Assembly (NCBI RefSeq): GCF_002245655.1
Contig: NZ_NOIH01000012.1
Location: forward strand, 62,001-126,000
Direction of reading: 5' to 3'
DNA from: Thauera propionica
GTDB taxonomy: Bacteria > Pseudomonadota > Gammaproteobacteria > Burkholderiales > Rhodocyclaceae
Length of the DNA: 64,000 bases
This document shows, in pieces, positions 27,055-35,747 of the stretch (within the stretch, counting starts at the first letter, position 1; each line of letters begins with the position of its first letter). Below the pieces are notes generated by a model. The model searched no databases. It saw only the letters and a program-made list of their open reading frames with translations, and was not told the origin of the DNA. The translations under genes and the position numbers were made by a program.

Positions 27055-27130
<76 letters not shown>

Positions 27131-27153
27131 AATCGAAGTTTTGCAGCATCTTA

Positions 27154-27229
27154 GTCCCCATCGTCTAGAGGCCTAGGACACCGCCCTTTCACGGCGATAA
27201 CCGGGGTTCGAATCCCCGTGGGGACGCCA
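27154..27229 (+). tRNA. tRNA-Glu (UUC), copy 1
   Basis: 76 bases with encoded CCA. Acceptor arms GTCCCCA/TGGGGAC, anticodon loop CTTTCAC (anticodon TTC) and T-arm GGGGTTCGAATCCCC. Confidence 0.97.
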
Positions 27230-27236
27230 ATTCAAG

Positions 27237-27264
27237 GCCTTTCAGCTCGAATGGGCTGAAAGGC
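27237..27264 (+). other. Hairpin in the tRNA-Glu/tRNA-Asp spacer
   Basis: GCCTTTCAGC (27237-27246) and GCTGAAAGGC (27255-27264) form a perfect 10-bp stem with an 8-base loop and no T-run. It may guide processing of the tRNA precursor. The equivalent spacer in the second cluster has a different sequence. Confidence 0.5.
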
Positions 27265-27296
27265 AGGGCCGGCAGATTGCCGGAGCAGTTTAGTGC

Positions 27297-27373
27297 GGAG
27301 TGGTAGTTCAGTCGGTTAGAATACCGGCCTGTCACGCCGGGGGTCGCGGGTTCGAGTCCCGTCCACTCCGCCA
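27297..27373 (+). tRNA. tRNA-Asp (GUC), copy 1
   Basis: 77 bases with encoded CCA. Acceptor arms GGAGTGG/CCACTCC, anticodon loop CTGTCAC (anticodon GTC) and T-arm GGGTTCGAGTCCC. Close to the E. coli tRNA-Asp layout. Confidence 0.97.
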
Positions 27374-27422
27374 GTTTTAAGTCGGGCCATGGTTCAAGCT
27401 GGATCTTCAAAGGCCGAAGGTC

Positions 27423-27451
27423 TTGCAAAGAGCTCAAGCAGTGGCTATGAT
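27423..27451 (+). promoter_or_regulatory. Promoter of the second tRNA cluster
   Basis: TTGCAA (27423-27428), a 17-base spacer and TATGAT (27446-27451), then a GC-rich discriminator. The spacing is ideal and it sits 14 bases before the second tRNA-Ala, so copy 2 can be transcribed independently. Confidence 0.7.
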
Positions 27452-27465
27452 CGCCGGCTCGTTGT

Positions 27466-27541
<76 letters not shown>

Positions 27542-27564
27542 AAAGGTTGTAAGGCAGTACCGCA

Positions 27565-27640
27565 GTCCCCATCGTCTAGAGGCCTAGGACACCGCCCTTT
27601 CACGGCGATAACCGGGGTTCGAATCCCCGTGGGGACGCCA
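27565..27640 (+). tRNA. tRNA-Glu (UUC), copy 2
   Basis: 76 bases, identical by eye to the copy at 27154-27229. Encoded CCA, anticodon TTC. Confidence 0.97.
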
Positions 27641-27701
27641 ACATCGCAGGCTGGCGAAGCCAGTCGGCAATGCCGGAGAAGTCCGGTAGCAAGGTCAGTG
27701 C

Positions 27702-27778
27702 GGAGTGGTAGTTCAGTCGGTTAGAATACCGGCCTGTCACGCCGGGGGTCGCGGGTTCGAGTCCCGTCCACTCCGCCA
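27702..27778 (+). tRNA. tRNA-Asp (GUC), copy 2
   Basis: 77 bases, identical by eye to the copy at 27297-27373. Encoded CCA, anticodon GTC. A terminator follows directly. Confidence 0.97.
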
Positions 27779-32112: not shown

Positions 32113-33792
32113 GTGGAAAAGATCTGGCTGCAAAGCTATCCGAAGGGCGTGCCGGCCGAGATCGACGTTGATCAATTCAAGTCGATCGGTGACCTGTTCG
32201 AGCAAGGGGTCAAGCGCTTCGGTTCGCGCACGGCCTACGTGTGCATGGGCAAGGGTATCACCTATGGTGAACTTGACGAGTTGTCGCGTCGTTTCGCCGC
32301 GTATCTGCAGGGTGAGCTGAAACTGCCTCGCGGTGCACGCGTGGCGTTGATGATGCCCAATGTGCTGCAGTACCCGATTGCCCTGTTCGGCACGCTTCGT
32401 GCCGGCTACACCGTCGTCAACGTCAATCCGCTCTATACGGCGCGCGAGCTCGAACATCAGCTGTGCGACGCCGGGGCCGATGTGGTCGTCATCCTCGAGA
32501 ACTTCGCCCACACGCTCGAGCAGGTGAGGGGGCGAGTGCCCGTCAAGCATGTTGTCGTCAGCAGCCTGGGCGAGATGCTGGGGTTCCCGAAGTCCGCGCT
32601 GGTCAATTTCGTCGTCCGGCGAGTGAAGAAGATGGTGCCGGCGTGGAAGCTCGATGGCGCCATCACGTTTGCTGCGGCGCTTGCGCGTGGCGAGCGCCAC
32701 CGTCTCCAGGCTGTCGAGGTGGGGCACGAGGACATCGCCTTCCTGCAGTACACCGGCGGTACCACCGGTGTGGCCAAGGGGACCATCCTCACCCACCGCA
32801 ACATCATCGCCAACCTGCAGCAGGCGCATGCCTGGATCAAGCCGTTCGTGCGCGAGGGCGAAGAGCTGATCATCACGGCGCTGCCGCTCTATCACATCTT
32901 CTCGCTCACGGCGAATTGCCTGACCTTCTTCAAGATTGGTGCGACCAACGTGCTGATCACGAATCCGCGCGACATCCCCGGCTTCGTCAAGGAGCTGGCG
33001 AAATACAAGTTCACCGCCATCACCGGCGTAAACACGCTGTTCAACGCGCTGCTCAACAACCCGGATTTCGGCAAGCTCGATTTTTCCCGTCTGCATGTCG
33101 CGCTGGGTGGCGGCATGGCGGTGCAGCAGGCGGTTGCCGAAAAATGGCGCAAGGTGACGGGCATTCCGCTGGTCGAAGCCTACGGCCTGACGGAGACGTC
33201 CCCGGCCGTCACGATCAACCCGCTCGACCTTCCCGAGTTCAATCACTCGATCGGCCTGCCGGTGCCGTCGACCGACATCAGCTTGCGTGACGATGCCGAC
33301 AACGAGGTGCCACTTGGACAGCGTGGCGAACTCTGCGTGAAGGGGCCGCAGGTGACGCGAGGTTACTGGAATCGTCCGGAGGATTCGGCGCGGGCATTCA
33401 CGCCGGACGGCTTCCTGCGTACGGGCGACATCGCAGTGGTCGACGAGAAAGGCTTCGTCTGCATCGTCGATCGGAAGAAGGACATGATCTTGGTGTCGGG
33501 CTTCAATGTCTATCCGAACGAGGTCGAGGACGTGGTCGCCAGTCACCCCGGCGTGATCGAGGTGGCTGCAGTCGGCGTGCCGGACGAGCGTAGCGGCGAG
33601 GCGGTCAAGATCTTCGTCGTGCGCAAGGATCCGGGCTTGACCGAGAAGGCACTGATCGCCTATTGCCACGAGAATCTGACGGGCTACAAGGTGCCGCACC
33701 GCGTCGAGTTTCGCGATGAACTTCCCAAGAGCAACGTCGGCAAGATCCTGCGGCGCGAGTTACGCGAGGGGCCGGTGAGGCAGGACGCATGA
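32113..33792 (+). CDS. fadD: Long-chain fatty-acid--CoA ligase (AMP-forming)
   Basis: 559-residue acyl-adenylate-forming enzyme. The P-loop-like motif [11 protein letters not shown], the A5 motif YGLTETSP and the hinge/A8 region [13 protein letters not shown]...[12 protein letters not shown] are intact, and the catalytic Lys is in [13 protein letters not shown]. Sequence style fits FadD. The GTG start at 32113 is supported by AAAGGAGGAG. The preceding 226-base gap has only a GGGGCTG/CAGCCCC hairpin (about 31896-31911) and no gene. Confidence 0.9.
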
Positions 33793-33880
33793 TGGCCTGA
33801 TCGCACAGGGCATGCACGAGGCGCTTGTGTTGTCGGCGCTTTCGTGCTCTCATCTGTGCCGCAAGTCATTTCGAGTCACC

Positions 33881-33958
33881 ATGCGTTCTTCCACCCGTTT
33901 CTTCGCCGTCGTATCCGTAGTCGTACGCGTAGTAGGCGTAGGCACGCACGCGTCGTAA
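33881..33958 (+). CDS. Valine-rich leader peptide of the ilvBN attenuator
   Basis: 25-codon ORF ATG 33881 to TAA 33956-33958, beginning MRSSTRFF. Eight of its 25 residues are Val, all between codons 10 and 20 (33908-33940) as VV, VVV, VV and V. Six of the eight are GTA, a codon little used in the surrounding GC-rich genes, and two are GTC. Ribosome stalling on these codons when Val-tRNA is short would expose the antiterminator sequence that starts at 33949. Initiation is supported only by a weak GAG six bases upstream. Confidence 0.88.
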   Translation: MRSSTRFFAVVSVVVRVVGVGTHAS

Positions 33959-34025
33959 CGGGACAGAACACTCGAACTGCAGGATTCCAAACCCCCGTCG
34001 GCGCGCAAGCCCGGCGGGGGTTTTT
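33925..34025 (+). promoter_or_regulatory. Transcription attenuator of ilvBN (pause, antiterminator and terminator stems)
   Basis: Three mutually exclusive pairings are visible. The pause stem is ACGCGT 33925-33930 with ACGCGT 33948-33953. The antiterminator is 33949-33962 with 33994-34005, 12 pairs with a two-base UA bulge at the leader stop codon. The terminator is 33989-34001 with 34011-34023, AAACCCCCG paired with CGGGGGTTT plus four inner pairs, followed by T's. The leader stop lies inside the antiterminator arm, so completing the peptide blocks antitermination. Confidence 0.85.
33989..34025 (+). terminator. Attenuator terminator upstream of ilvB
   Basis: Stem AAACCCCCGTCGG with CCGGCGGGGGTTT (one U-G pair), 9-base loop, and T-run at 34021-34025. 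It lies 31 bases after the leader peptide stop and 54 bases before the ilvB ATG. Confidence 0.88.
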
Positions 34026-34079
34026 GCATTCTGGGGCCGCGCCGGTGATGTCGCTGAAGTCGAAACCAAGGAGAGCACC

Positions 34080-35747
34080 ATGACTCAACTCACCGGCGCG
34101 CAACTGATCGTGCGCCTCCTCGAGCGCCAGGGCGTGCGCACCATCGCCGGCATCCCCGGCGGCGCCATTCTTCCGTTCTACGACGCCTTGTCCGCGAGCA
34201 CGCAGATCCGCCACGTGCTCGCACGCCACGAGCAGGGTGCCGGCTTCATGGCCCAGGGCATGGCGCGGGTGTCCGGTGTGCCGCAGGTCTGCATCGCCTC
34301 GAGCGGCCCGGGTGCGACCAACCTCGTCACCGCGATTGCCGATGCCTGTCTGGACTCGATCCCGATGGTCATCATCACTGGCCAGGTGCCGCAGTCGATG
34401 ATCGGCACCGACGCCTTCCAGGAGGTGGATATCTACGGCATCACGGTGCCGATCACCAAGCACAATTTCCTCGTGCGTTCGGCACAGGAACTGCTCGACG
34501 TCGTTCCCGATGCGTTCCGTATCGCCATGTCCGGCCGTCCCGGTCCGGTGCTGATCGACGTGCCGAAGGACGTGCAGAACCAGTTGATCGAGGTGGGGGA
34601 GTTGCCGCCGCCCGCGGTGCCCGACATGCCGCCGCAACTGGACATGGTGGCCATCGACGCTGCGGCGCAGATGATCAACGCGGCAGAACGTCCGGTGCTG
34701 TATCTGGGCGGCGGGGTGGTTCATTCCGGTGCGTCGGCGCTGGCCGTGCAACTGGCAGAGCAGGGCGGGCTGCCAACGACGATGACGCTGATGGCGCTTG
34801 GCGCAATGCCGATCGATCACCCCCTGTCGGTCGGCATGCTCGGCATGCATGGTGCCCGTTACACGAACTTCGTGCTCGAAGAGGCCGACTTGCTGATCTG
34901 CGTCGGTGCCCGTTTTGACGACCGCGCCATCGGCCGTGCCGCGCAGTTCTGCCCGAACGCGAAGATCGTGCATATCGACGTCGACCGCTCCGAGCTGCAC
35001 AAGATCAAGAATGCGCACGTTGCGATCCATAGCGATGTCACGGCGGCGCTGGAGGCCTTGCTGCCGCGCGTCAAGCCCGCGCTGCGTACCGACTGGCTGG
35101 CGCATGTCGCCGATCTCAAGCAGCGCTTCCCGATGCAGTTTCCGGGCAGCGACGATCCGCGCAGCCACTACGGTCTGATCAAGGCTGTCGCCGACGCGCT
35201 CGACGACGAGGCGGTGGTTGCCACCGACGTGGGCCAGCACCAGATGTGGGTCGCGCAGGCCTATCCGTTCCGTCGCCCGCGCCAGTGGCTCACCTCGGGT
35301 GGTCTGGGCACGATGGGCTTCGGTCTGCCGACGGCTATCGGTGCGGCCTTGGCCGAGCCCGAGCGGACTGTCGTGTGCTTCTCGGGCGACGGCAGCTTCA
35401 AGATGAACATCCAGGAACTGGCGACGCTGGCCGAGGAAGGGCTCAACGTCAAGGTCGTGCTGATGAACAACAACGCCTTGGGCCTGGTGTACCAGCAGCA
35501 GACGCTGTTCTACGGCAAGCGCCTGTTCGCGTCCAAGTACCGCACCGAACCGGATTTCGTGAAGATTGCCGAAGGCTTCGGCGTGCCGGCGATCGATCTC
35601 GACAAGGCCGATGATCCGCGCGCCGCGCTGGCCGAGGCTCTGAACGCTCCTGGCCCCTGCCTGATCCACGCGACGATCGATCGCGAGCAGTTTGTCTATC
35701 CCATGGTGCCGCCGGGTGCCGCCAACACCGAAATGATCGGAGGCTGA
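34080..35747 (+). CDS. ilvB: Acetolactate synthase, large subunit
   Basis: 555-residue ThDP-dependent enzyme catalysing the first common step of Ile and Val synthesis. Catalytic Glu51 ([10 protein letters not shown]), the FAD-region [17 protein letters not shown], and the ThDP motif GDGSFKMN...NNN are intact. AGGAGAG precedes the ATG. It is controlled by the valine attenuator just upstream and coupled to ilvN by a TGATG stop/start overlap. Confidence 0.95.

Follow-up and report, generated by a model that had tools for sequence, protein, structure and literature searches.

A probable valine attenuator of the ivbL type in front of ilvBN in Thauera propionica and its relatives

Introduction

Valine attenuation of ilvBN, the operon of acetolactate synthase I (AHAS I), has been worked out in enteric bacteria. 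The enteric ilvL-ilvGMEDA leader senses Ile, Val and Leu, and a comparative study by Vitreschak and colleagues reportedly exists. Here we describe a leader region of Thauera propionica that lies in a stretch of 64,000 nucleotides (contig NZ_NOIH01000012.1, positions 62,001 to 126,000; the window, whose own numbering is used throughout). Positions 33881-34025 of the window are very probably a ribosome-mediated valine attenuator of ilvBN, probably homologous to that of enterobacterial ivbL-ilvBN. The original prediction, made from the sequence letters, had proposed a complete valine attenuator at this place, and its anatomy, its conservation, its likeness to ivbL and the outcome of mask folding all bear this out.

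According to the accessible part of PMC3766115, isoleucine/valine attenuators were absent from Rfam at its date, and the attenuators studied there may be gammaproteobacterial in origin with few transfers. Actinobacterial ilvBNC attenuators (Corynebacterium; PMC11857589, PMC10272879) resemble the element described here in the leader-peptide attenuation of an ilvBN operon and differ from it in lineage and operon, a comparison made by description only. In the literature covered, no report was found of an ilvBN attenuator in Rhodocyclaceae or of tRNA-Val(CAC) in connection with leader codons; subscription papers were mostly outside this coverage, which leaves the absence unproven. As far as the coverage goes, the family-wide extent of the element and the GTA/GTG pattern of its leaders with its tRNA association are new.

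Results and discussion

Architecture of the leader region

The elements of the region are collected in Table 1. Translation and positions agreed with the predicted 25-codon leader open reading frame (ORF) with eight Val codons, six of them GTA, in an 11-codon block. For comparison, 111,980 windows of 11 codons were drawn from 254 ORFs of the same genome (114,520 codons; ORFs of at least 200 amino acids, selected by a GC3 rule rather than taken from an annotation), and their maximum was six Val codons and three GTA codons. The pattern GTAxxxGTAGTAxxxGTA had a single occurrence in the genome, at the leader site, and was found three times when read backwards. As predicted, the leader stop codon lies inside the antiterminator arm, where its UA is bulged out of a helix of 7+5 base pairs, and the antiterminator and the 13-base-pair terminator stem are mutually exclusive both in sequence and in the fold. 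The leader is followed by ilvB, ilvN and aroC, so that the attenuator stands directly upstream of an operon of the E. coli AHAS I type.

Table 1. Features of the leader region and the ilvBN operon, in window coordinates
Feature	Position	Strand	Basis
Promoter-like footprint TTGTGT-N17-TCTCAT, inferred -35/-10	33825-33853	+	by-eye reading of 34 aligned upstream regions
Leader ORF MRSSTRFFAVVSVVVRVVGVGTHAS, 25 codons and TAA stop (33956-33958)	33881-33958	+	translation; translation in cells is predicted
Control block of eight Val codons (six GTA, two GTC) within codons 10-20	33908-33940	+	sequence; mask folding
Pause stem, 5' arm ACGCGT	33925-33930	+	6 bp with the 3' arm; 96.4% of 224 cells paired, 40 distinct rows
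Pause stem, 3' arm ACGCGT	33948-33953	+	pairing, alignment, mask folding
Antiterminator, 5' arm, contains the leader stop codon	33949-33962	+	92.1% of 480 cells paired
Antiterminator, 3' arm, overlaps the terminator 5' arm	33994-34005	+	alignment pairing
Intrinsic terminator, stem 33989-34001 with 34011-34023 and T-run 34021-34025	33989-34025	+	fold, alignment
ilvB, acetolactate synthase I large subunit, 555 aa	34080-35747	+	NCBIfam NF006016 (PRK08155), 1043.6 bits, cut-off 870
ilvN, short acetolactate synthase regulatory subunit, 105 aa	35747-36064	+	NCBIfam NF006036 (PRK08178), 171.1 bits, cut-off 128

Conservation in relatives

In a sample of 150 relatives and the own genome, 57 genomes carried an ilvB that was 65-100% identical to that of the window. 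All of them belonged to one family (f1), and identity in the other families of the order reached at most 49% in this 151-genome sample. The family is probably Rhodocyclaceae in the GTDB sense, judged from the named relatives Tepidiphilus (77%) and Ca. Accumulibacter (72%), neither of which is placed in Rhodocyclaceae by NCBI. Each locus was scored for an ORF with at least five Val in 12 codons and for a later terminator of -15 kcal/mol or better. Within the 57 family loci the Val-rich ORF was present in 55, a terminator after the ORF in 56 and both in 54, the misses being L147, L150 and L168. Both features were also found at 18 of 21 AHAS-I-like loci elsewhere (L003-L012, L209-L219). The corresponding number at other acetolactate synthase loci was 8/57 (Val-rich ORF 9/57; these are the loci with full flanks among the 70 loci L013-L082), and at the control loci L169-L173 it was 0/5. 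Alignment of the upstream regions of relatives, proposed with the original prediction, revealed that the Val-rich ORF and the same order of stems were kept. The ivbL-type unit is thus a conserved feature of one family, probably betaproteobacterial, and has a sparser distribution among the remaining families of the GTDB class. In that class, 21 of 369 genomes (the own genome included) carried an AHAS-I-like ilvB passing 1e-150, sparsely distributed across families; 11 of these 21 (L209-L219) were 47-70% identical and all had an ORF with at least five Val in 12 codons, that of L218 being doubtful.

This distribution bears on a reading in which the Val-rich ORF is untranslated and 33989-34025 merely terminates the upstream gene. 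A long-chain acyl-CoA ligase gene does end at 33792 on the same strand, and a consensus scan of the window called neither a sigma-70 promoter at the leader nor the 33989-34025 terminator. The joint presence of the Val-rich ORF and the terminator before ilvB in 54 of the 57 loci, and the same arrangement before the enteric ilvB, where ivbL is annotated, render this reading very improbable. The terminator missed by the scan is established instead by folding and conservation. By eye, CTTGTG or CTTGTC followed after about 17 nt by ATTAAACT or TTTCAT could be recognized in most of the 34 aligned upstream regions, including that of the window.

Of the 121 family genomes, 64 had a match to a covariance model of the attenuator (R1) at E<=0.01, the weakest matches being near chance and several being only putative ilvB leaders. 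The candidate matches L234, L235, L236, L237, L238 and L239 (genomes G169, G198, G190, G182, G196 and G171, respectively) contained Val-rich ORFs. The only further match in the own genome lay on contig C57, where a single site scored on either strand (E 0.0011 and 0.0017); it was rejected as a second attenuator copy, its locus L232 being devoid of an ORF with at least five Val in 12 codons. The genome also contains a second acetolactate synthase gene (C2:50004, locus L170), 44% identical to the ilvB of the window, in front of which no Val-rich leader was found. Outside the class, a contig of an Opitutaceae (Verrucomicrobiota) metagenome-assembled genome (MAG), L012 (1-3720), showed an AHAS-I-like ilvB (63% identity in the part available) with a Val-rich leader and a terminator, which may reflect either cross-phylum transfer or mis-binning. 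Val-rich ORFs (MSTIVLSVVVVVVCQPPQG and others) were also seen at about 2000-2500 of L037, L039 and L042, before acetolactate synthase genes 47-51% identical to the ilvB of the window; their hosts are Breznakibacter, a Fibrobacteres MAG and a Myxococcales MAG.

Pairing and covariation of the stems

The original prediction had named three alternative stems, and all arms pair as it gave them. The segment 33985-34030, which contains the terminator, folded with -29.0 kcal/mol (z -4.3), a value equalled by 0/200 shuffles. In the alignment A1, which comprises 41 sequences (40 distinct) from 41 of the 57 family loci and in which the rows L110, L111, L145 and L146 lack the first 12 columns, 96.7% of 514 terminator cells were paired. 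Compensatory changes were present in two terminator pairs and nine cells; nine compensatory cells were reached by 0/500 shuffles and two pairs by 174/500. Versions of the terminator slid along the alignment were 41-63% paired, a slide of +3 also giving two compensatory pairs, with six cells. Sliding the antiterminator by 1-3 columns reduced its pairing to 25.6-52.3%, compared to the value in register given in Table 1, and its double changes (one pair, three cells) were equalled by 43/500 shuffles. The alignment thus supports terminator pairing by compensatory changes and suggests antiterminator pairing by conservation only.

The predicted pause stem is supported only in part, by the conservation of its pairing; it neither covaried nor was stable in the naked leader. 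Its pairs hardly vary in A1, no covariation was found there, and every shuffle equalled the stem; the A-U pair is missing in eight sequences and the 5' arm in four alignment rows. The segment 33921-33970 alone was no stabler than its shuffles (z -0.37).

Folding with a ribosome mask

In the folds the ribosome was assumed to shield the RNA up to 15 nt beyond the first P-site base, and its A site was placed at codons 8-26. With the A site at codons 8-19, the antiterminator reached a probability of 0.94-0.95 once transcription was at 34010. The value decreased to 0.73 at Val20, about 0.4 at codons 21-22, 0.05 at codon 23 and 0.00 from codon 24 to the stop. The end of the Val block thus roughly coincides with the point beyond which stalling would no longer help. 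While the antiterminator 3' arm was still missing, the pause stem formed with a probability of 0.94-0.99 for a ribosome at codons 8-11 and 0.56 at codon 12, and it was absent from codon 13 on, so that in the fold it forms only with a ribosome over the leader start. A ribosome at codons 13-18 leaves the antiterminator arm free and prevents the pause stem. The mask thereby reproduces the predicted switch between antiterminator and terminator.

Three observations speak against this assignment or complicate it. In the full-length RNA the equilibrium favours the terminator in every fold, and antitermination must therefore be kinetic. Without a ribosome the antiterminator was predicted at 0.89 and the pause stem at 0.01-0.02; since the naked leader folds to the antiterminator, the classic outcome, termination when translation is lacking, was not reproduced. 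Finally, the covariation of the antiterminator is no better than that of slid versions, a slide of +1 giving two pairs with two cells.

The leader and the hairpin are close to those of E. coli ivbL, so that the mechanism can be considered known, and we infer valine-dependent termination and stalling in the cell from it. RNA polymerase would make a short leader RNA with a ribosome translating close behind. With enough Val-tRNA, the ribosome would reach the stop at 33956 and cover the antiterminator 5' arm, and the terminator stem would end transcription before ilvB. When the tRNA of the control codons is uncharged, the ribosome would stall at codons 13-18, the antiterminator 5' arm would then be free to pair with its 3' arm and pre-empt the terminator, and ilvBN would be transcribed.

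Comparison with enteric attenuators

The enterobacterial ilvB/ivbL model, to which the original prediction had appealed, is supported by the same order of elements in relatives and by the likeness to annotated E. coli ivbL. In both cases the operon is that of AHAS I, the leader is Val-rich and ends VRVV..VG..A[PS] at the stop, the stop codon is closely followed by GGG, and the terminator has a core CGGCGC(A)A..CCG with a T-run. IlvB of seven enteric loci is 65-67% identical to that of the window, and the leaders of these loci end ..VVRVVVVVG.AP at the stop. For the Escherichia locus L008, the upstream region matched 5369 of 5426 E. coli genomes, and three listed E. coli records place an annotated 'ilvB operon leader peptide IvbL' before ilvB. 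The E. coli leader ends in AVVVVRVVVVVGNAP and that of the window in SVVVRVVGVGTHAS, with the relatives L161 (VVVVRVVVGVGGNAP) and L162 (SVVVRVVDVGGNAP) being intermediate in form. On these grounds, with leader C-terminus and terminator core likened by eye, the attenuator-ilvBN unit probably shares descent with E. coli ivbL.

The two systems differ in their codons and in one tRNA. The seven enteric leaders carry CTA Leu codons and GTG/GTC as Val codons, whereas the leader of the window contains neither Leu nor Ile codons and mostly GTA. A tRNA-Val(CAC) is present in the genome of the window and was not found in the seven enteric genomes. The predicted response to valine alone thus holds for the ORF of the window and does not extend to the family, in which 45 of 57 leaders have Leu or Ile codons; 22 of 49 leaders have them within five codons of the conserved Arg. 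The motif VRV occurs in 49 of the 57 family leaders and also in enterobacterial IvbL peptides. Leu and Ile codons are treated here as a variable feature that does not define the ivbL kind.

The enteric ilvL-ilvGMEDA system is likewise an attenuated acetolactate synthase operon, but its leader stands before another acetolactate synthase and shows no likeness by eye to that of the window. The leader MTALLRVISLVVISVVVIIIPPCGAALGRGKA in the comparison loci L024, L031 and L036, and the Val-rich ORF of L060, are what we take to be this enteric ilvL leader.

Valine codons of the leaders

The 57 family leaders contain 428 Val codons, of which 283 (66%) are GTA, 102 GTC, 29 GTT and 14 (3%) GTG (start codons excluded; the shortest ORF with most Val was chosen). 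Tabulation of the 254 ORFs of the window genome, a check proposed with the original prediction, identified GTA as its rarest Val codon, at 6.3%, with fractions of 0.433 for GTG, 0.407 for GTC, 0.097 for GTT and 0.063 for GTA. In the 49 leaders with VRV, the core GTACGCGTAGTAGGCGTAGGC is highly conserved and GTA makes up 0.82-1.00 of the Val codons around the Arg. Upstream of the core, where the amino acids vary, it accounts for 59 of 126 (30/69 in the own genus, 29/57 in other genera). The seven enteric leaders, with 65 Val codons, use GTG 34, GTC 29 and GTA 2 times.

One possible, though rather unlikely, cause is a constraint on the RNA itself, in which the attenuator works as described and GTA keeps the leader loose or preserves the geometry of pause stem and antiterminator, tRNA supply being irrelevant. 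It would account for the high conservation of the core, one A of which pairs in the pause stem. It does not fit the strong enrichment of GTA also in the stretch before the core, for which no functional stem is postulated. Nor is there a general preference for A-ending codons in the 57 leaders: they are not favoured for Leu, Gly, Ser, Thr or Pro and only slightly for Ala (CTA 2/96 Leu, GGA 7/106 Gly, GCA 24/190 Ala). Codon swaps gave a divided answer. Changing GTA to GTC had a small effect (-21.4 vs -19.9 kcal/mol; antiterminator 0.83 vs 0.89), and a change of all GTA to GTG left the antiterminator (0.95 vs 0.89) and the terminator (0.93) about unchanged. The same GTG swap tightened the fold of the leader ORF by 7 kcal/mol (-27.1 vs -19.9), and a change to GTT lowered the antiterminator of the unmasked leader from 0.89 to 0.09 and raised the pause stem from 0.02 to 0.68; these last two results speak for the RNA constraint.

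A simple preference for whichever Val codon is rarest, which would slow decoding irrespective of the tRNAs present, agrees with GTA being the rarest in the window genome, and also with Proteus mirabilis (L251, about 440-560), in which ivbL has GTG at 5/9 Val codons and no GTA, and ilvB (25 Val codons) uses GTG (0.16) more rarely than GTT or GTA (0.32). We nevertheless consider it improbable, since enteric leaders use GTG at 34/65 even though each of the seven ilvB genes also has GTG as its most frequent Val codon, and the L211 leader has GTG at 8/10, GTG again being the most frequent Val codon of the ilvB there (0.42). The rare-codon account is moreover termed an oversimplification in the accessible part of PMC1183508. 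The Proteus mirabilis record itself is labelled plasmid, yet has 4.09 Mb.

Valine isoacceptors and leader codons

The genome of the window has one tRNA-Val(UAC) gene, one tRNA-Val(GAC) gene and two tandem tRNA-Val(CAC) genes. These were read from 55 tRNA matches, in which the anticodon stayed unread for C2:2864 and C55:324066 (82-90 nt, a length as in Ser or Leu tRNAs) and for the weak match C23:618138; a third CAC pattern match, on contig C13, lies outside the 55. The two tandem genes (L129, 1501-1721) are not identical, with differences in the anticodon stem and at other places. The original prediction had interpreted the GTA preference as tuning to a scarce Val-tRNA. The rarity of GTA and the single tRNA-Val(UAC) gene are in line with this, and the tRNA-Val(GAC), which is also encoded by one gene, is not.

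Pattern searches detected a tRNA-Val(CAC) in 56 of the 57 AHAS-I genomes (51 by a first pattern and five more by a second) and in none of the seven enteric genomes. Relatives that lack AHAS I often have this tRNA too, which is hence not specific to AHAS I. A D-arm pattern was discarded for the counts, as it does not fit tRNA-Val(CAC), and a link within the family between GTA-rich leaders and this tRNA was given up when the five AHAS-I genomes, complete or almost so, that appeared to lack it were all matched by the second pattern, leaving no contrast. Between families a contrast was apparent. In those with tRNA-Val(CAC) outside f1 (f118, f176, f174, f110, f200, f134), the leader fractions were 0.00-0.29 for GTG and 0.17-0.57 for GTA, and in those without it (f101, f194, f151, f114, f154, enterics, Opitutaceae) they were 0.22-0.80 for GTG and 0.00-0.29 for GTA. 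GTA was at least as frequent as GTG in 7/7 families with tRNA-Val(CAC), f1 included, and in 0/7 without (Fisher p 0.0006). ARAGORN confirmed the CAC anticodon in seven of eight pattern matches, G417 being the exception; the absence of the tRNA is weak evidence in G405, G528 and G431, which are 58-82% complete, completeness being stated for some of the genomes.

Selective charging was calculated following Elf and Ehrenberg (PMC1183508, accessible part) with the codon usage of the own genome and eight parameter sets, tRNA abundances, modifications and wobble parameters being assumed. In this model GTG kept at least 0.75 of its rate in 8/8 sets, because tRNA-Val(CAC) stays charged, and GTC, GTA and GTT became slow. 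The model would therefore explain the near-absence of GTG; to explain why GTA is preferred to GTC it needs an extra assumption, GTA being most sensitive only with UAC at about 1/5 of GAC or less. Under its assumptions, avoidance of GTG fits better than use of the scarcest tRNA.

We give equal weight for and against to the proposal that the leaders avoid GTG because a separate tRNA-Val(CAC) would keep this codon readable in mild valine shortage, GTA depending on tRNA-Val(UAC). Our confidence is similarly divided down the middle on the wider idea of an isoacceptor-specific sensor, by which a lineage with tRNA-Val(CAC) would rewrite its ilvBN leader from GTG to GTA (and GTC) and would sense how far tRNA-Val(UAC), as opposed to bulk Val-tRNA, is charged. 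Several results weigh against both. In two of the seven CAC-positive families GTA and GTG are equally frequent. Family f216, omitted from the 7/7, was opposite by automatic choice of the ORF, and its inclusion on that basis gave Mann-Whitney p values of 0.011 for GTG and 0.023 for GTA; by eye, an alternative ORF in its locus L218 has three GTA, one GTC and no GTG, which is not a computed count. The ilvB tree provides four independent contrasts, two of them well supported, all in the expected direction and too few for significance, the order-level search around G312 for further ones having covered five genomes only. A Tepidiphilus MAG (L011), outside the family table, has a leader with three GTA, one GTG and one GTC and no tRNA-Val(CAC) match, and G015, an AHAS-I genome of the family that is 77% complete, also gave no match. 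In the charging model, finally, GTC and not GTA was the most sensitive codon at equal UAC/GAC dosage.

Isoacceptor tuning is thus plausible and not proven; the codon pattern is strong and its cause hypothetical. If the isoacceptor sensor were true, the codon choice of a leader would be predictable from the tRNA gene content and would provide a natural evolutionary test of selective-charging theory, which, going by the accessible part of PMC1183508, would predict regulatory codons evolving to match the tRNA gene set.

Rfam matches and a tRNA cluster

No Rfam model detects the ivbL-type unit. At the gathering threshold only tRNAs and no leader family matched in the window; at E<=10 the best overlapping match was RF00627 with 14.9 bits vs 70 required, and four related loci gave no match either. 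Elsewhere in the window, at 27055-27778, a tRNA-Ala(GGC)-Glu(TTC)-Asp(GTC) cluster is duplicated in tandem.

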